A stretch of 64,000 nt of DNA from BD2-11 clade cluster bacterium bin43 (GTDB lineage Bacteria; Gemmatimonadota; Gemmatimonadetes; Longimicrobiales; Gaopeijiaceae). The notes beneath the pieces were generated by a model, which was not told where the DNA came from, did no database searches, and saw only the letters and a program-made list of their open reading frames with translations. How positions within the stretch are numbered: the first letter of the stretch is position 1; each line of letters begins with the position of its first letter. Shown here piece by piece: positions 23,952 through 32,372 of this stretch. A program made the position numbers and the translations under genes. Where the stretch lies: assembly GCA_002238605.1 (NCBI GenBank), contig MPMR01000013.1, positions 1-64,000 of the forward strand. Reading direction: 5' to 3'.

Positions 23952-25421
23952 CTATTCCCTCCAGGGAAACTCCGGCCGCCGCAGGTGCCAGTCCGTCTCG
24001 CGCTGATAGCCCATTCCCATATCCAGCACTGCCTGATCGTCCATCGACGAGCCGCAGATCTGCAGCGACAGCGGCAGCCCGTCCTCGTCGAATCCGCAGG
24101 GGATGGCGAGCCCCGGAAGGCCGACCAGGTTGGCGATATAGTTGAGGCGCGGGGTGCGGCCGCTGACGTCGTCGGGCGGCTCCCACTCGTTGCGCGCCGG
24201 GATGGGCCAGCCCTCGCTCACCTCGCGCATGGCGGCGCCGTTGGGCCACGTCGGGGCGATGACCGCGTCGTAGCGGGAGAGGATCTCGTCGGTTTCGCGC
24301 ACGAGCTGGTTGCGGATGCGCTGGGCCGTGAGATAGTCGGCGGCGGGCATCATGCGCCCGGCCATCCAGCCCGCGCGCCGGTCCTCGTTGAACGAGAACA
24401 TGTTGGCCGCGCTGCCGTCCTCGAAGAGGGCCTGGAAGTTGGTGCCGCTCTCCACCGTGACGATGGTGGTGAAGAGGGCGCCGGTGGGCCGGAGGGGCAG
24501 CTCCACATCCTCCAGCACCACGCCCATCTGCTCGAAGACGTCGAGCGCCTCCTGGAAGACGCGCCGGGTGTTCTCCGAGCCCGAGAGCAGGAATTCGGGC
24601 CGATGCACGCCCAGCCGCCGCCCGCGCATGGTGCCCGGATCCGCGCGGAAGACGAACGGCCGGTCGACGGTGCTGTTGTCGCGCGCGTCGTATCCGGCGA
24701 TGTACTGCAGGATGTGACCGCAATCCTCCGCCGAGCGCCCCACGGGACCGATCTTGTCCAGGCTCCACGAGAGCGCCATGCAGCCGAAGCGGCTCACGCG
24801 GCCAAAGCTGGGACGGAGCCCGGAAGCCCCCACCGCGGAGGCCGGGAATACTATGGAGCCGCCCGTCTCCGTCCCGATGCCGAAGCCGATGAGGCCGGCC
24901 ACCGCCGCCGACACCGTCCCGCTGGAGGAGCCGAAGCTGGTGCGGTCGAGCTTCCACGGGTTGAGGGCGGAGCTGGTGTTGCCGCCCGCGAACTCGCCGA
25001 GCGAATTCTTCGCCATGAGCACGGCGCCGGCGCCTTCGAGCATGTCGATGACGGCCGCGTTCCGGTCCGGCACCCGGTCCCGGAAGATGCCGGAACCCCA
25101 GGTGGTGCGGATGCCGCGGGTGTCGAGCAGGTCCTTCACGCCGTAGGGGATCCCGTGCAGGATGCTGCGGCGATTCCCGGCGGCCAGCTCCCGGTCGGCG
25201 CGCTCGGCGGCCTCGAGGGCGTGGTCGCGCGCGATGGTGACCATGGTGGCCAGCTTGCCGTTGTGGTCGGTGCGGGGCTCGCTGGGCAGCTCGAAGGGGG
25301 GGACGTCCAGCTCCTCGGCACGGTCCAGGTAGGCCTCGGTCAGCTCGACCGAGGTGATGGAGCCGTCGGCGAGGAGGTCGGCCAGTTCGCGTACCGTCAG
25401 AAAGAAGGTCGATTCCTGCAT
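23952..25421 (-). CDS. Amidase (GatA/AtzE-like amidase signature family)
   Basis: The 489-residue protein carries the complete amidase-signature machinery: Lys96 in HGIPYGVKDLLDT, the cis-Ser in TSFGSSSGTVSAAV (about residues 165-167) and the nucleophilic Ser189 in GTETGGSIVFPAS. Members hydrolyse carboxamides to acid and ammonia. There is no signal peptide. Its ATG follows, three bases after the stop and in the same frame, a small Tat-signal gene whose C-terminus resembles AtzG/DUF4089, the GatC-like partner of AtzE amidases. A GGAGG at about 25433-25437 supports separate initiation. This suggests a two-subunit amidase that could be exported folded, piggy-backed on the Tat-tagged subunit. 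The substrate is unknown. Confidence 0.92.
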   Translation of the reverse strand: MQESTFFLTVRELADLLADGSITSVELTEAYLDRAEELDVPPFELPSEPRTDHNGKLATMVTIARDHALEAAERADRELAAGNRRSILHGIPYGVKDLLDTRGIRTTWGSGIFRDRVPDRNAAVIDMLEGAGAVLMAKNSLGEFAGGNTSSALNPWKLDRTSFGSSSGTVSAAVAGLIGFGIGTETGGSIVFPASAVGASGLRPSFGRVSRFGCMALSWSLDKIGPVGRSAEDCGHILQYIAGYDARDNSTVDRPFVFRADPGTMRGRRLGVHRPEFLLSGSENTRRVFQEALDVFEQMGVVLEDVELPLRPTGALFTTIVTVESGTNFQALFEDGSAANMFSFNEDRRAGWMAGRMMPAADYLTAQRIRNQLVRETDEILSRYDAVIAPTWPNGAAMREVSEGWPIPARNEWEPPDDVSGRTPRLNYIANLVGLPGLAIPCGFDEDGLPLSLQICGSSMDDQAVLDMGMGYQRETDWHLRRPEFPWRE

Positions 25422-25424
25422 GGC

Positions 25425-25706
25425 TCAGCCCCTCCGGAAGACGAGAAGGGGAGGCTCGTCGGGATCGAGCGGGAAGTCGCGCAGCGTCCGCTGCACGTTG
25501 ACCATGTTGGCGATGGCCGCCTTCAGCCGCTCCAGCTCCGCGGCGTCGTCGTAGATGCCCCGCGATCCCTGGTGATCGAGCAGCGTGTTGGCCGTCGCGG
25601 TCGTAACCTCTCCGGTCTCGGCGACCTCGGCACAGGCCTGCGCCCAGGCCAGCGCCATCGCGCTCGCGCCGGCGACTGCGGTGAACTTTCGGCGGTCCAT
25701 GGTCAT
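25425..25706 (-). CDS. Tat-signal small protein, AtzG/DUF4089-like amidase partner
   Basis: This 93-residue protein starts MTMDRRKFTAVAGASAMALA, a twin-arginine signal (DRRKF) with an h-region ending near AQACAE. The remaining 60 residues are mostly helical (DDAAELERLKAAIANMVNVQ) and end FPLDPDEPPLLVF. That ending closely resembles the C-terminal motif of DUF4089/AtzG proteins, the GatC-like subunits that wrap around AtzE-type amidases; this is recall rather than a search. Its TGA is in frame with, and one codon before, the amidase ATG, so the two could also be the halves of a once-continuous Tat-exported amidase. The intact Shine-Dalgarno before the amidase argues for two genes made together. 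Confidence 0.65.
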   Translation of the reverse strand: MTMDRRKFTAVAGASAMALAWAQACAEVAETGEVTTATANTLLDHQGSRGIYDDAAELERLKAAIANMVNVQRTLRDFPLDPDEPPLLVFRRG

Positions 25707-25971: not shown

Positions 25972-26385
25972 ATGAGTAAGAGACTGCAGGTCGTGCTGTC
26001 CGAAGCGGAACTTGAGGAAATCCGCGACGCCGCGAGGCGCAATCGCATCACGGTGTCCGCATGGGTCCGGAAGACGCTGCGCGAGGCACGGGAGCGGGAG
26101 CTGCGCGGGGGGGCCGCGGCGGTGCGGGAAGCGCGTCCGGAGTACCGGGCGCCGGAATCCGCCGATTATCCCTATGTCAACCTCGAAGTGAAGCTGCCGG
26201 AAGCCGATCTGGAAGCCATCCGGAAGCGCTACGGGCTCCGCAACTGGTCGAGGGCCGTCAAGGAAGCGGTCTGGCGTCAGGCGATCGTGCCGATGACGAA
26301 GGAGGAAGCGCTCGCGATGCAGGGATTCGGTTGGGACGGGGATCTGGACGAGATGCGAGACGGTAGTCCCGGTGATCTTTGGTGA
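25972..26385 (+). CDS. Antitoxin with two antitoxin-like segments (RHH plus VapB-like)
   Basis: The 137-residue protein is about twice the usual antitoxin size. Residues 1-45 (KRLQVVLSEAELEEIRDAAR, ITVSAWVRKTLREARE) look like a ribbon-helix-helix DNA-binding domain. Residues about 65-137 (VNLEVKLPEADLEAIRKRYG, NWSRAVKEAVWRQA, EEALAMQGFGWDGDLDEM) look like a second VapB-type antitoxin, whose tail GWDGDLDEMR is typical of the part that plugs PIN toxins. A linker of about 20 residues joins them. The stop overlaps the toxin's GTG start (GTGA). It should neutralise the PIN RNase and repress the operon through the upstream palindrome. Confidence 0.75.
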   Translation: MSKRLQVVLSEAELEEIRDAARRNRITVSAWVRKTLREARERELRGGAAAVREARPEYRAPESADYPYVNLEVKLPEADLEAIRKRYGLRNWSRAVKEAVWRQAIVPMTKEEALAMQGFGWDGDLDEMRDGSPGDLW

Positions 26386-26792
26386 TCGTCGATACCTCTG
26401 CGTGGGTCGAGTACCTGCGCAAGACGGGGAGCCCGATCCACCTCGCGCTGCGCGCCGAAGTTCAAGCGGGACGGCCCATCGCCACGCCGGCTCCCGTCGT
26501 AATGGAGTTGCTGGCGGGCTCACGCACGGAATCCGACGCCCGCAAACTGCAACGGATGCTCTCCCGCTTCGAAATCATCGTCCCCGATTCGCTGGGGGAG
26601 TTCCAGCATGCGGCTCTCATCCAGCGCACCTGCCGCCGCGCCGGCTGCACGATCCGATCGATCGTGGACTGCATGGTCGCCGCCGCCGCAGTTGACGCGG
26701 CTCGCCCCCTTCTGGCCCGCACCCGCGACTTCGAGGTAATCGCCCGGCACACCGCCCTGGAGTTGGTTGTGCCGGAGGACGATTGTCCCTGA
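26382..26792 (+). CDS. PIN-domain ribonuclease toxin (VapC-like)
   Basis: The 136-residue product begins MIVDTSAWVEYLR, the first PIN strand with the catalytic Asp, followed by VVMELLAGSR (Glu), RSIVDCMVAAAAV (Asp) and LLARTRDFEVIARHT (Asp), so the acidic quartet is complete. It would cleave RNA when released from its antitoxin. GTG 26382 is chosen because it overlaps the antitoxin stop; TTG at 26379 is possible. This is the second PIN toxin in the window; it belongs to a different subgroup from that at 6872-7288, and its antitoxin is of a different fold. Confidence 0.85.
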   Translation: MIVDTSAWVEYLRKTGSPIHLALRAEVQAGRPIATPAPVVMELLAGSRTESDARKLQRMLSRFEIIVPDSLGEFQHAALIQRTCRRAGCTIRSIVDCMVAAAAVDAARPLLARTRDFEVIARHTALELVVPEDDCP

Positions 26793-26852: not shown

Positions 26853-28049
26853 ATGCCAATGCAAGCGCGCGGCTTCGGGCGCCTGGAATCACACTGGCTT
26901 GGATTGCCGACGCGCCGGTACCGCTACTCTCGCGCGTATTGCCGCTGCTCTCTATGTTGCTCGCGCTCTGAGGTTGCCACCGCCAGCACGCCTCCGGACC
27001 CCGTCCTCGTCTCCAACCTCACGCGGAGTTTCCCCACCTTGCGAGCACTGCATGTCGAACCCCTTGCCGACTGGATCCAAGGCCTCTTTCAGCAGACTGC
27101 GGAGGGTGCCGGAGTCGAGATGACGTGGGGCGGCGGGATGGATGAACGGGAATTGCGCGCGGCTGCGGCCAGCGCCGACGCGCTCGTGACCGCGAAACGG
27201 TCCGTCGGCGCGGACCTGATCGGCGCCTCCCCGCAGCTTCGTCTGATCCAGGTACAGGGACGGGCGCCCTGGGCGGTGGATCGGGACGCCGCGGCTGCGG
27301 CCGGAGTGCCGGTGTCGGTGCTTCCGCACCGAGGCGCGATCGCCGTCGCCGAGCAGACCGTCGCGCTGATGCTGGGCCTCTACCGCAAACTGGTGCCGGG
27401 GCATCTGGGCACCCGGGACGCGGAGTATCAAGGTCTCGGCGTGGAGCCCGTGCGCACCACGGAGCGCAAGATCGCCTTCAACTGGCTGCGCTACCCGGAC
27501 GTCTGGCAGTTGCACGGGAAGACGCTCGGTCTGGTCGGGCTTGGCGACATCGCGCTCGAGGTCGCGCGGCGCGCGCGCGCTTTCGATATGGAGATCGTCT
27601 ACACGAAGCGCACGCCCCTGCCCCGGGCGCACGAGGAGATGGTCGAGGCGCGCTTCCTGCCGCTCCCGGAGCTCCTCGCCGCGAGCGACGTGGTCAGCCT
27701 GCACGCGCCCCATACCGACCAGACCGAGTGCATGATCGACGCCGCCGCCCTTGCGCTCATGAAACGCACGGCCATCCTGGTGAACACGGCGCGCGGCGGG
27801 CTGGTCGATGAAGATGCGCTCGTCGACGCCCTTCACGGCGGCCGGATCGCCGGGGCGGGGCTGGACGCCTTCCTCTACGAGCCGCTGCCGGCGGGCCACC
27901 CGCTGGCGGATGCGCCCAACGTCCTCCTGTCACCCCATGTGGGCGGCGGGACCGGCGGCGGGCAGCGCGGCATGATCGACGACGTGGTCGCAAATCTGGT
28001 TGCGGCTGGGCGGGGTGATGAGGTGAAGGGCCTTGTCCGGCCCGGATGA
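26853..28049 (+). CDS. D-isomer-specific 2-hydroxyacid dehydrogenase
   Basis: The protein has the NAD-binding signature LHGKTLGLVGLGDIALEVARRA, then VVSLHAPHTDQTECMID, and NTARGGLVDEDALVDALHGG with the catalytic Arg/Glu region, ending with the His motif NVLLSPHVGGGT. It reduces a 2-keto acid or oxidises the D-2-hydroxy acid with NAD(H). The start is uncertain: ATG 26853 gives 398 residues, but the first 45 are Arg/Cys-rich and unlike family members, whose N-terminal domain should begin near VLVSNLTRSFPTL; no good start codon lies there in frame. The N-terminus may be altered by an upstream indel or use a non-standard start. Confidence 0.85.
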   Translation: MPMQARGFGRLESHWLGLPTRRYRYSRAYCRCSLCCSRSEVATASTPPDPVLVSNLTRSFPTLRALHVEPLADWIQGLFQQTAEGAGVEMTWGGGMDERELRAAAASADALVTAKRSVGADLIGASPQLRLIQVQGRAPWAVDRDAAAAAGVPVSVLPHRGAIAVAEQTVALMLGLYRKLVPGHLGTRDAEYQGLGVEPVRTTERKIAFNWLRYPDVWQLHGKTLGLVGLGDIALEVARRARAFDMEIVYTKRTPLPRAHEEMVEARFLPLPELLAASDVVSLHAPHTDQTECMIDAAALALMKRTAILVNTARGGLVDEDALVDALHGGRIAGAGLDAFLYEPLPAGHPLADAPNVLLSPHVGGGTGGGQRGMIDDVVANLVAAGRGDEVKGLVRPG

Positions 28050-28170
28050 CGCCGGTCGCCCGGGGGCGTCGGTCCGGGTCGCGGTCGCCGATGGGCGGGC
28101 CCATGTTGCGCCGGGACAGGAAGGGTCACGATTACCGTTCCCACTCACACAACCCTGAGCCCCGAACGCC

Positions 28171-29400
28171 ATGCTGAGAGACCCGCTTCTGGTTGTCGCA
28201 TTCATGCTGGCCGTGGTGGCCTTCGCGCGCTGGCTGGAAGAGCGCTACGACGTCATCAAGAAGATCAGCTCCGCCGTCGTGTGCACCCTGCTCGGCATTA
28301 CGCTCGCCAACGTCGGCGTGATCGAGCACACCGGGCCCGCGCACGAGGGCGTGTTCACCTTCGCCATCCCCTACGCGATCGTGCTCGTCATCATGGGCAC
28401 GCAGATGAAGGAATTGGCCAACGCGGGAAGGCCGCTCCTGATCGCGTATCTCGCCGCGTGCGGGGGCAGCTTCGTTGGCGGGGCGGTCGCGGGCGCGACC
28501 ATGGCCGGATGGGTCGGTCCGGAGACGTGGAAGCTCTCCGGGGCGTTCTCGGCCGCCTTCGCGGGGGGCGGGATGAACTTCGCCGCGGTCGGGCAGGGGC
28601 TCGAAGTCGAACCGAGCACCTTCGCCGCGGCCGCGCTGGCCGACAACATGTCGACGGTCCCGTACCTGCTGTTCCAGGTGTGGTTGGCGGGGATCCTTGG
28701 CGCGATGTTCCTGCGCCGGTCCGGTCCCGGGTTGGCGGCGGTATCGGCCACGGACCCCGCGGAGAAGGAAGAGCAGGACGCGCAGGAGGAGACGATGCGC
28801 CGCCGCTGGACCGACACCGACATCAGCATCACGGATTTCGCCATCCTGGGAGGCCTGCCCCTCGCCGCGCTCTGGGTGGCCCGGCTCATCAGCGAAAGGC
28901 TGACCGAAGCGCTCCCCTCCATGGCGGACGGCTCGCCCTGGTACGGACTGGTCAGCTTCCTGAGCGAGGTGCCGGACGTCCTCTGGCTCACGACTATCGC
29001 GCTCATCGTGGCGCAGTTGCCGTGGGTGAGAAAGCTGCGCGGGGCCGAAGTCCTTTCCTACTTCGCGCTCCACATCTTCTTCATCGCGCTGGGCGCGGCC
29101 TCCGACCTGGCGACCATCCTGGACGCCGGCGTTCCCATCTTCGGCTTCATGATCGTCATCATCGGCATTCACGTCGTCGTCGCGTACGGGATCGGTTGGC
29201 TTTTCCGCATCGATCTCGCCACCGTCTCGATCGCAAGCCAGGCCGCGATCGGCGGGCCTGGATCGGCGCTGGCCATCGGCATGGCGATGAAGTGGCACAA
29301 GCTGGTCGCCCCCGCGGTCATCGTGGGCATCTTCGGATATGCCCTCGGGAACTACCTTGGCTACGCCTGCGCCCAGTTGGTTGATGCGCTTGTGGGTTAG
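28171..29400 (+). CDS. DUF819-family integral membrane protein (putative transporter)
   Basis: The 409-residue protein contains about ten to eleven membrane segments in two halves joined by a charged cytoplasmic linker (roughly residues 195-215, KEEQDAQEETMRRRW). Each half has a Gly-rich discontinuous stretch: LSGAFSAAFAGGGMNFAAVG in the first and QAAIGGPGSALAIGMAMKW in the second. This duplication is the hallmark of the DUF819 family, predicted secondary carriers of unknown substrate distantly like glutamate/sodium or CPA-type carriers. It begins 121 bases after the dehydrogenase and is followed by the SDR gene, so it may move the substrate or product of the adjacent catabolic genes. Confidence 0.85.
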   Translation: MLRDPLLVVAFMLAVVAFARWLEERYDVIKKISSAVVCTLLGITLANVGVIEHTGPAHEGVFTFAIPYAIVLVIMGTQMKELANAGRPLLIAYLAACGGSFVGGAVAGATMAGWVGPETWKLSGAFSAAFAGGGMNFAAVGQGLEVEPSTFAAAALADNMSTVPYLLFQVWLAGILGAMFLRRSGPGLAAVSATDPAEKEEQDAQEETMRRRWTDTDISITDFAILGGLPLAALWVARLISERLTEALPSMADGSPWYGLVSFLSEVPDVLWLTTIALIVAQLPWVRKLRGAEVLSYFALHIFFIALGAASDLATILDAGVPIFGFMIVIIGIHVVVAYGIGWLFRIDLATVSIASQAAIGGPGSALAIGMAMKWHKLVAPAVIVGIFGYALGNYLGYACAQLVDALVG

Positions 29401-29479
29401 GGCCGAGATCGATTCCCCGGCGATCGATCCGGTTGCCTGTCACCCCGCGAGCCAACGTGTGCCCACCTTTCGATAAGGC

Positions 29480-30307
29480 ATGCCCGCATACAGCGTTGCA
29501 CCTCCGCTAAGCGTCGCGGGCATCGACGTTCTCGTGACCGGATCCGGCCGAGGTCTGGGTCGGGGAATTGCACGGTCGATGGCCGCTGCGGGCGCGCGCG
29601 TGTGGCTGGTGTCGGAGGTGCCGGAGGAGCTCGAGTGGACTGCGTCCGACATCCGCTCGGCGGGGGGCGAGGCTCGCATTCTCGTCACCGATCTCGGGCG
29701 GGACGATGCACGAAAGGGACTGGCTCGCACCCTGCGCGAGGAAGCCCGCAAGCTGCGCGTCATCGTCAACAACGCCGGCGTGTTGGAACGTGAGCCGGTC
29801 GCTTCACTGGACGCCGCACACTGGCGGCGCATCATGAGCGTAAACCTGGAAGCTCCGGTCTTCCTGACCCGGGATCTCCTTCCGCTCCTTGGGGAAGAGG
29901 GCGGATCCGTGATCAACGTCTCATCGCGCGCGGGGACCGGCGCATTCCCGCGGCAGGCCGCATACTGTGCATCGAAATTCGGCATGGAGGCATTCACCCG
30001 ATGCCTCGCGCTGGAGCTGGCGGGGTTGCCCATCAGCGCCAACACGGTGACGCCGGGGCTGCCCATCAAGCCGACCTCCCTCACGCAGAGCGACGCGGAA
30101 GATGCGGATGCGGCGACGCGTGCGGGATGGCGGGATCCCATCAGGCTGGGGCCCGCGTTCCTCTTTCTCGCCGGGCTGCGCGGGCAGATCAGCGGCTGCC
30201 GCTTCGACGCCTGGACATTGACGCGGGCACTGGAGCAATGGGGCACTCGGGGGATGATGAACCGTATTCACGAAATCGCCGAATATACGCCGGAGGCTGT
30301 CGGATGA
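29480..30307 (+). CDS. Short-chain dehydrogenase/reductase
   Basis: A classical SDR of 275 residues: the cofactor motif TGSGRGLG (TGxxxGxG), NNAGVLE, catalytic Ser in VINVSSRAG, and YCASK with the Tyr/Lys pair. The C-terminal part (DPIRLGPAFLFLAG) also matches. It oxidises an alcohol or reduces a ketone with NAD(P)(H). Its TGA overlaps the ATG of the downstream aminotransferase-like gene (ATGA), so the SDR is translated together with the two aminotransferase-family proteins. The pairing suggests an alcohol/ketone step next to a transamination step, but the substrate cannot be named. Confidence 0.92.
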   Translation: MPAYSVAPPLSVAGIDVLVTGSGRGLGRGIARSMAAAGARVWLVSEVPEELEWTASDIRSAGGEARILVTDLGRDDARKGLARTLREEARKLRVIVNNAGVLEREPVASLDAAHWRRIMSVNLEAPVFLTRDLLPLLGEEGGSVINVSSRAGTGAFPRQAAYCASKFGMEAFTRCLALELAGLPISANTVTPGLPIKPTSLTQSDAEDADAATRAGWRDPIRLGPAFLFLAGLRGQISGCRFDAWTLTRALEQWGTRGMMNRIHEIAEYTPEAVG

Positions 30308-31173
30308 CCGAAACGAGCAACGGAAACGTGCCCGCGGGGACCCACGGAAGCGCCGCGGAGGCGGCGGTTTCCCAGCGGGCCAGGACAGCGATGAAGTCCT
30401 TTCGCCTCGCAACGCCGGACGCCTGGTCCGCACCCACTCGGTCGGGCCCGAGCGAAGGCTTGCGGGCCGGCCTGCGCCATCACCTGCTGGCCGGAGAAAC
30501 GCACTATCCGGACCGGCCCGGTATGGGAGAGCTGCGCCGCCGCGTAGGCGAAGCGCTTCTGCGCGTGGGGTTTCCCGCCCGCGAACCAGATGGCGTGCTC
30601 ATTACTCAGGGCGAAGGGGAGTCCCTCTTCGCGACCCTCCTGGGCCTCGGCGGCGGCGAGGGGGCGGTCATCGTCGCAAGTCCTGGAGGTCGGCATCAGC
30701 GCCTGCTCGACTGGATGCGGGCGCGCGTGATCGAACCCGGCGCCGACGCTCCGCCTGGAGCCGAGGCGGCGTTTCAGCTGATCGAGTACGAGGCGGGGGC
30801 GGCGATCCTCGAGAATGGGAACGCATCCCCCGACCTGGGAATCCCCCGGGTGCACGCCATCGGGGACCGGCTCTTTGCCACCGGCGACTCGCCGAATTCG
30901 TCCGCGTCCTCGACGACGCACGGAGCTCCTTCGTCAGCCTGGGATTCCGGTGCCGGCCTGTCGGTCCCGGGCGATCCCGATCCCGACCTCGCGGACGCCA
31001 TCGTCATCGGCTCGCTGGACGGCCTTGAGGGAATGCACCCGTTCTCTCTCGGCTTCGTCGCCGCTCCGGTGGCCGTGCGGCCGCGCATCGCCAAGTGGAA
31101 GCAGGCGTCGTCCATCTGCTCGCCGGCTCCCTCGCAGCGCGCCGCGTTGTGGGCGCTGGGGGTGCGGCCATGA
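30304..31173 (+). CDS. Aminotransferase-like protein without catalytic lysine or C-terminal domain
   Basis: The 289-residue product follows the class I/II aminotransferase plan in outline: LAGETHYPDRPGMGELRRRV (substrate loop), GVLITQGEGESLFATLLGLG (where active relatives have TNGAQEGL) and, near the end, MHPFSLGFVAAPVAVRPRIA followed by SICSPAPSQRAALWAL, which aligns with the stretch after the PLP lysine in the neighbour. Where active enzymes have GFSKAYAMTG this protein has GSLDGLEGMHP, so the lysine is missing. NPxNPTG and SDEIYE are also absent and the small C-terminal domain is gone. It sits between an SDR and an active aminotransferase, overlapping both by four bases. It may be a regulatory or structural partner, or a decaying duplicate kept in frame. 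Confidence 0.7.
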   Translation: MTETSNGNVPAGTHGSAAEAAVSQRARTAMKSFRLATPDAWSAPTRSGPSEGLRAGLRHHLLAGETHYPDRPGMGELRRRVGEALLRVGFPAREPDGVLITQGEGESLFATLLGLGGGEGAVIVASPGGRHQRLLDWMRARVIEPGADAPPGAEAAFQLIEYEAGAAILENGNASPDLGIPRVHAIGDRLFATGDSPNSSASSTTHGAPSSAWDSGAGLSVPGDPDPDLADAIVIGSLDGLEGMHPFSLGFVAAPVAVRPRIAKWKQASSICSPAPSQRAALWALGVRP

Positions 31174-32372
31174 GCGCCCCGATGAAGTCCCGGGAACGTG
31201 CGGGTTCCGCATCGCTGCGCAAGGGTGAGGCGGCCACCTCCCTGCGCTACAAGATGATGGCACTCGCGCGGGAACGAGAGAACGTCATCTCGCTCGGCCG
31301 GGGCGATCCGGACCTGCACACGCAGCCCGCGATCGTGGAGGATGGCCTGGCCCGTTTCGCCGGCGCGATGGGCGCGGGGATGGCCGTATGGGACGAAGGA
31401 CCGGTGCGTGGCCTGCATTCGCTGCGGGAGGGCATCGCCCGCCGGTATGCCCGCGAGAAGGGCGTCGAAGTCGATCCCGCCACCGAGATCGCCATCACCA
31501 ACGGCGCCCAGGAGGGGCTCTTCCTGGCCATGCTGGCGCTCGTCGACCCGGGCGACCGGGTTGCCTGCCAGGACCCGCGCTACAGCTCCTACGACCAGGC
31601 CATCGGGACCGCGGGCGGCGACATCGTGCCCGTCCCCACCGGCGGCGACCGGCCCTTCGAGCTCGGGGGCGGGGAGCTCCGGCAGCACGCGCAGGGCTGC
31701 AAGCTGCTCGTGTTCGTGAATCCATCGAACCCGACGGGCGCCTGCGTCGGCCCGCAGGGCGTCCGCGATCTGGCGCGGGCCGCAGCCGACCTCGACATGG
31801 TCGTGGTGGCCGACGAGATCTACGAGGACGTGGTCTTCCGCGAAGAGCCCTTCCTGTCACTGCTCGCCGCGGAGGGCGCGCGCGGGCGCTCGGTGGTCCT
31901 TTCGGGCTTCTCCAAAGCGTACGCGATGACCGGCTTCAGGGTCGGCTACCTCGTCGGCCCGCCTGCCTTCATCGACGCGGTGGAGGCCATCAAGAGCACG
32001 ACCTCCGGCCCGTGCCCGGCGTTCTCGCAGTACACCGCCCTCGCGGCCCTCGAGGCCGAGCCGGACCCGCGCCCGCAGTACCTGGCGCGTTATCGACGCC
32101 GGCGCCAGGCGCTGATCGACGGCTTCGCCGACCTGGCCGTCCCGCACGGGTCCCACGGGGGAGGCCTGTTCATGTGGGCCGACGTGTCGCGCTTCGGAAT
32201 GGATGCCGAGACCTTCTGCTACCGCCTCCTCGACGAGGCGGGCGTGCTGATGTTCCCCGGCGCCTCCTTCGGGGAGCGCTGGCGCAACTGGGTGCGGGTT
32301 TCGCTCCTGTGTCCGGAGGCGCGGATCCTCGAGTCGATGCAGCGCATTCGGACATTCGCCCGCAACCTGTAG
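31170..32372 (+). CDS. PLP-dependent aminotransferase, class I/II
   Basis: The 400-residue enzyme shows all active-site motifs: ISLGRGDPDLHTQ, TNGAQEGLFLAMLALVDPGD, VNPSNPTGA, ADEIYEDVVF and the PLP lysine in SGFSKAYAMTGFRVGYL. The C-terminal domain, with an Arg in WVRVSLLCPE, is present. It is clearly paralogous to the enzyme at 12480-13652 (same opening block and PLP region). Its ATG overlaps the stop of the lysine-less homologue, so both are made from one message in a coupled way, which favours a hetero-oligomer. The amino donor and acceptor are unknown. Confidence 0.92.
   Translation: MSAPMKSRERAGSASLRKGEAATSLRYKMMALARERENVISLGRGDPDLHTQPAIVEDGLARFAGAMGAGMAVWDEGPVRGLHSLREGIARRYAREKGVEVDPATEIAITNGAQEGLFLAMLALVDPGDRVACQDPRYSSYDQAIGTAGGDIVPVPTGGDRPFELGGGELRQHAQGCKLLVFVNPSNPTGACVGPQGVRDLARAAADLDMVVVADEIYEDVVFREEPFLSLLAAEGARGRSVVLSGFSKAYAMTGFRVGYLVGPPAFIDAVEAIKSTTSGPCPAFSQYTALAALEAEPDPRPQYLARYRRRRQALIDGFADLAVPHGSHGGGLFMWADVSRFGMDAETFCYRLLDEAGVLMFPGASFGERWRNWVRVSLLCPEARILESMQRIRTFARNL

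Follow-up and report, generated by a model that had tools for sequence, protein, structure and literature searches.

A twin-arginine-tagged small subunit encoded directly before a signal-less amidase: a putative Tat hitch-hiker pair across several phyla

How might an amidase without any export signal of its own leave the cytoplasm, and what part could be played by a small twin-arginine protein encoded directly before it? This question is raised by two adjoining open reading frames (ORFs) in the window, i.e. the whole 64,000-nucleotide stretch of contig MPMR01000013.1 from the gemmatimonadote bacterium bin43 that was analysed. The explanation that we favour, with a probability of roughly 0.7, is that both products assemble into a heterodimer that folds in the cytoplasm and leaves it by the twin-arginine (Tat) route, the amidase hitch-hiking on the small subunit; binding, export and location are what we infer from comparative evidence. 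In the following we consider the two genes, the identity of their products, the export signal and its distribution, and finally known systems of similar design.

Two adjoining genes

The initial annotation described a 93-residue twin-arginine protein, followed after one codon and in the same frame by an amidase lacking a signal. A check of the sequence confirmed this layout, with both ORFs on the minus strand exactly at the positions given and a TGA-GCC-ATG junction between them. The features of the pair are:

25706..25425, minus strand: small ORF, 93 aa plus TGA stop; Tat signal, then an AtzG/GatC-like helical hairpin and an extended C-terminal tail
25614..25706, minus strand: Tat signal region, residues 1-31; MTMDRRKF, hydrophobic stretch and conserved QAC (Cys25); RR motif invariant, AF2 helix at 5-31
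25428..25613, minus strand: mature AtzG/GatC-like region, residues 32-93; helices at 36-44 and 55-76, C-terminal motif LDPDEPPLLVFRRG
25429..25435, minus strand: GGAGGGG, Shine-Dalgarno-like, within the final codons of the small ORF; amidase ATG 7-8 nt downstream
25422..25427, minus strand: TGA stop (25427..25425) and the single codon GCC that separates the ORFs; in relatives the junction varies in length and frame
23952..25421, minus strand: amidase-signature enzyme, 489 aa, ATG at 25421, without signal peptide (PF01425, 1.7e-77)

The purine run GGAGGGG is retained in relatives, as sequence comparison revealed, and may plausibly serve the amidase as ribosome-binding site; its position inside the small ORF suggests that translation of the two genes is coupled. 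On the reading that we favour, the two ORFs would form an operon, with coupled translation, that encodes a heterodimeric amidase.

Purifying selection acts on the small ORF, with dN/dS values of 0.09-0.26 within the genus. The ORF was detected in 13 of 59 related genomes: it is intact and 90-95% identical in 8 other genomes of the same genus, interrupted by contig ends in one further relative of the genus (G004), and intact and 56-60% identical in 3 other genera. One genome holds a decayed second copy of the pair (L015; G015:C5:9109-9279, minus strand), in which a small-subunit remnant with internal TGA and TAA codons precedes an N-terminal fragment of the amidase.

The shared frame in the window, together with the existence of fused homologues, could be taken to mean that a single exported amidase was broken here by a nonsense mutation, or that the stop codon is read through, and the initial annotation had listed both a split of a once-fused amidase and readthrough as alternatives. 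However, every intact copy of the small ORF closes with a stop (TGA in the window), in other species and genera as well, and the amidase does not keep to one frame: in two of the other genera it begins in a different one, either overlapping the stop (TGATG) or right after it (TGAAGATG). Over 62 split loci the amidase frame relative to the small ORF is the same in 16, shifted by +1 in 34 and by +2 in 12. Because the frame relation differs between genomes and the stop is kept, we regard the products as two separate proteins; moreover, the amidase has its own start and putative ribosome-binding site. Homologues that form one fused gene, named at the outset as evidence against the pair, do exist, but they constitute a separate clade on the amidase tree and possess a longer linker. 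Conserved stops and changing frames thus exclude nonsense mutation and readthrough for all practical purposes.

Some loci (e.g. in G281 and G282) in which long open frames around the small subunits resembled fusions proved to be split. In these two genomes the amidase of the split pair (L183 and L185) carries a short, unrelated N-terminal extension of ~26 residues with no signal-like stretch.

The amidase and its small partner

The amidase is a member of PF01425 (261.8 bits against a cut-off of 27) and starts directly at the catalytic domain, which leaves no room for a signal. K96, S166 and S189 occupy invariant columns in 12 homologues, and we take them, by motif, to be the Lys-cisSer-Ser triad. 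We rejected an assignment to GatA or AtzE proper, since the scores against both models (TIGR00132, 222.6 bits; TIGR02715, 184.1 bits) fall below the curated cut-offs of 481.1 and 425.75 bits, respectively. Among solved structures, GatA is the best sequence match of the enzyme. An AF2 model of the pair as a read-through chain, whose two-residue link is artificial and which is weakest at the junction, reached a pLDDT of 88.8 and a pTM of 0.82; its structural matches are about equal for GatA (Z 49.6 with 2df4_A, Z 49.4 with 4wj3_A), AtzE (Z 48.0) and peptide amidase (Z 47.8).

The small protein occupies the place of an AtzG-like gene, directly upstream of the amidase, and aligns with its homologues in the pattern G.RL...L..V...I.......LR.F.L...DEP...FR. 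The initial annotation had assigned its C-terminal motif to the AtzG/DUF4089 type, which holds at the level of the family, in that 6 of 38 homologous small subunits match PF13318 (AtzG-like, formerly DUF4089; best 2.9e-5), but not for the window protein itself, which has no PF13318 match at E up to 10. Likewise, the window protein matches neither PF02686 (GatC) nor any other Pfam model above noise, and the GatC model matches its relatives marginally (0.12). Among 29 related genomes the sole PF13318 match is the N-terminal extension of one fused homologue. Profile alignment with AtzG of plasmid pADP-1 is gapless over 55 columns, at a modest probability of 37%.

Structural comparison gives a similar picture. 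In the AF2 model of the small protein (pLDDT 85) the signal forms a helix, after which come a short and then a long helix and an extended tail. The AtzG chain 6c62_C was among 32 chains proposed by Foldseek, and aligns with residues 34-93 at a weak Z of 3.0 (59 of 66 positions aligned); no Foldseek match of the model had E below 0.001, and when the small-subunit profile was compared with the sequences of solved structures, no relevant match emerged. We therefore describe the small protein as distantly AtzG/GatC-like, a family-level similarity predicted from sequence and model, and do not file the window protein under PF13318. An identification as GatC or AtzG proper was rejected, the cut-offs of PF02686 and PF13318 not being reached.

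In some Acidobacteriota (L088, L094, L115, L111, L132, L135, L146) the Tat-tagged small subunit lacks much of the first helix, and mainly the C-terminal half of the domain is left. A GatC match just above the cut-off is present on another contig of the window's genome (G000:C5:39720-39977); at the same threshold none was found in 10 genomes of the genus, probably as a result of divergence.

AtzG is a non-catalytic, obligate partner of AtzE, which is insoluble in its absence (PMC6219798). By analogy, the non-catalytic small subunit, with its two-helix hairpin and extended tail, would bind the amidase and stabilise it in the cytoplasm.

The export signal and its distribution

The small protein begins with MTMDRRKFTAVAGASAMALAWAQACAEV, in which RR.F at residues 5-8 is followed by a hydrophobic stretch; this motif arose in 0.55% of shuffles of the N-terminal 20-mer. 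R5, R6, F8 and C25 are invariant in 12 homologues, so that the conserved RR before a hydrophobic stretch that characterises Tat substrates is present. The window protein has no match to the TAT_signal models TIGR01409 or PF10518; out of 10 homologues compared with these models, L081 passes TIGR01409 (18.3 against a cut-off of 16.7) and several give weak matches. The host genome encodes TatC (2.6e-63), and the signal resides on one partner only, as expected of Tat hitch-hikers.

Several homologues have lipobox-like signal ends (e.g. LPGC in L030), and some lineages may attach a lipid to the conserved cysteine that follows the hydrophobic stretch. The window signal ends in WAQAC, which is not a canonical lipobox, and Cys25 could belong to a non-canonical one. 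On the hitch-hiker reading, the Tat translocase would move the folded heterodimer over the cytoplasmic membrane by means of the N-terminal signal of the small subunit, and the complex would act at the outer face, possibly lipid-anchored where the lineage has a lipobox.

The initial annotation had proposed a search of related genomes for pairs or fusions of a Tat-tagged small subunit with an amidase, and both were found. A single scan of named genomes yielded 80 loci, whose N-termini were sorted by eye; many of the records are metagenome bins, and the phylum label may be wrong in some cases. At 38 of these loci the genes are split and the small subunit bears a twin-arginine signal. By their record labels, split Tat pairs span at least seven named phyla, namely Gemmatimonadota, Acidobacteriota, Actinomycetota, Armatimonadota, Myxococcota, Planctomycetota and Eiseniibacteriota. 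Another 12 are split pairs that lack a signal altogether, a type found in Chloroflexota, Bathyarchaeota, Rokuibacteriota and others, and 20 encode one fused chain whose N-terminus is of Sec, lipoprotein or membrane-anchor type. The rest consists of one fusion with an unclear N-terminus, two loci left unassigned owing to contig ends or masked bases, and seven in which no small ORF was found. Where a split pair has a signal, it is the small partner that carries it, and no amidase of a split pair has one of its own.

Tat fusions are known from 15 loci in Gemmatimonadota, two of which are paralogues in the window's own genome:

G000:C1:20102-21451 (L064): fused Tat paralogue
G000:C11:64166-64924 (L065): fused Tat paralogue, AtzG-like part largely lost

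In Bacteroidota the domain occurs in 74 of 296 genomes, and all 76 matches lie in single open frames of 554-677 codons; of the 30 matches inspected at the N-terminus, five are of Tat type and the others of Sec or anchor type.

When the loci from named genomes and from the genome search are taken together, signal-bearing split pairs comprise 50 Tat and no Sec cases, all 50 with an RR (or RK) motif, and fused forms comprise 15 Tat and 20 Sec or anchor cases. Such a distribution is predicted by hitch-hiking, because a signal-less partner needs a translocase for folded complexes and a single chain may take either route. On the amidase tree, however, the difference between split and fused forms amounts to one change, as does that between Tat and Sec among fused forms, and the contrast therefore rests on few independent events; a Fisher test of route by architecture (p 2e-10) is overstated for the same reason, and we set it aside as evidence. 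The Tat-only pattern of split pairs is thus suggestive and statistically not decisive.

Could the hydrophobic N-terminus be an anchor only, with the complex forming and remaining at the cytoplasmic side of the membrane? Fused homologues of Bacteroidota and Aminicenantota often have a single membrane anchor, and export of the window's pair is something that we infer. Nevertheless, a plain anchor needs no invariant twin-arginine motif, which all 50 signal-bearing split pairs have, and the lipobox-like signal ends imply processing on the outside; we consider this alternative improbable.

Distances between small domains and between amidases are correlated (r 0.87 over 54 loci; r 0.68 over 25 distant loci), and none of 2000 permutations gave a value as high. 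This joint divergence is consistent with co-inheritance and interaction of the partners. It also bears on the idea that the small protein is exported alone in a separate role and the amidase is a cytoplasmic enzyme, against which speak, besides the correlated divergence, the adjacency of the genes across seven phyla and the existence of exported single chains that unite both parts; we judge such separate roles very unlikely. The hitch-hiker reading of the initial annotation, by contrast, drew support from every comparative test that was run: the pair recurs in at least seven named phyla, the predicted signal is on the small partner only, RR is found in every signal-bearing split pair, the partners co-vary, and Tat fusions exist.

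Known systems and a possible role

Several known systems share part of this design. The AtzG-AtzE complex (1-carboxybiuret hydrolase of Pseudomonas sp. ADP, PDB 6c62) has the same gene order, a small non-catalytic subunit and then the amidase, but AtzG (68 aa) lacks a signal, unlike the Tat-tagged window protein. GatC-GatA of the tRNA amidotransferase GatCAB follows a similar logic of small subunit plus amidase, and GatA is the top structural match of the window amidase; in contrast, the window operon has no GatB-type partner, its small protein bears a Tat signal, and a separate GatC match occurs elsewhere in the genome. Ni-Fe hydrogenases, formate dehydrogenases and PaoABC are co-translocated by Tat with a signal on one subunit (PMC10924467, PMC4273604). 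They resemble the window pair in this restriction of the signal to one subunit, and differ as cofactor-bearing redox enzymes from a cofactor-free hydrolase.

The closest parallel in layout is the Streptomyces tyrosinase MelC2, which is reported to hitch-hike on Tat-tagged MelC1, with a signal-less paralogous pair, melD, that is intracellular (PMC2758597). Both systems are bicistronic and combine a small Tat-tagged helper with a signal-less enzyme; on the other hand, they share no known homology, and MelC1 has the further task of supplying copper, while amidase-signature enzymes work without a cofactor. As has been proposed for MelC1, the small protein might be a Tat-carried chaperone that loads and escorts the amidase and is no lasting structural subunit, and the signal-less melD pair (PMC2758597) would find its counterpart in the 12 signal-less split pairs. 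The permanence of AtzG as an obligate partner of AtzE (PMC6219798) argues against such a transient escort, as do natural fusions that hold the domain covalently on an exported amidase, and we regard it as unlikely. In Gemmatimonadota, Bacteroidota and Aminicenantota, fused amidases with Tat or Sec signals likewise combine an AtzG-like domain and an amidase in an exported chain; they differ from the split pair in being one chain with an interdomain linker, in forming a separate clade on the amidase tree, and in that many of them have Sec signals or membrane anchors.

Tat hitch-hiking is known chiefly for cofactor-bearing, mainly metal-containing, enzymes. Both ingredients of the present case, AtzG/GatC-type amidase partners and Tat hitch-hiking, are familiar. 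A search of mainly open-access literature turned up neither a Tat-tagged GatC/AtzG-like subunit nor the union of the two ingredients, over many phyla, in a hydrolase that needs no cofactor. If our reading is true, subunit assembly itself, and not cofactor loading, can motivate Tat export, and the presence of signal-less pairs, Tat pairs, Tat fusions and Sec fusions in one family makes the question of why Tat is used testable within homologues. More broadly, we consider the odds even that the pairs belong to a widespread and so far undescribed class of cofactor-free hydrolases exported as Tat hitch-hiker heterodimers, in which a GatC/AtzG-type assembly subunit turned into an export adaptor such that only the assembled amidase is exported, and in which fusion let a sister lineage switch from Tat to Sec or a membrane anchor. 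For annotation this would mean that amidases which look cytoplasmic when read alone are probably exported; as for the small subunits, current models overlook most of them.

The neighbouring genes form a divergent cluster that may give a clue to the substrate:

26853-32372, plus strand: D-2-hydroxyacid dehydrogenase, DUF819 membrane protein, short-chain dehydrogenase, degenerate aminotransferase-like ORF and aminotransferase

This cluster also lies beside the pair in L059 and L070, and a part of it does so in L073 and L078. Its retention beside the pair hints at a role of the amidase, which might release an amino or carboxylic acid outside the cell that is then taken up and processed. Within the cluster, an ORF at 30301-31170 has weak, fragmentary similarity to aminotransferases and directly precedes a full class I/II aminotransferase, whose best NCBIfam match is GntC-like and below the cut-off. 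Finally, two overlapping small ORFs upstream of the pair (25972-26792, plus strand) resemble, to judge by their sequence, an antitoxin and a PIN-domain (VapC-like) toxin.
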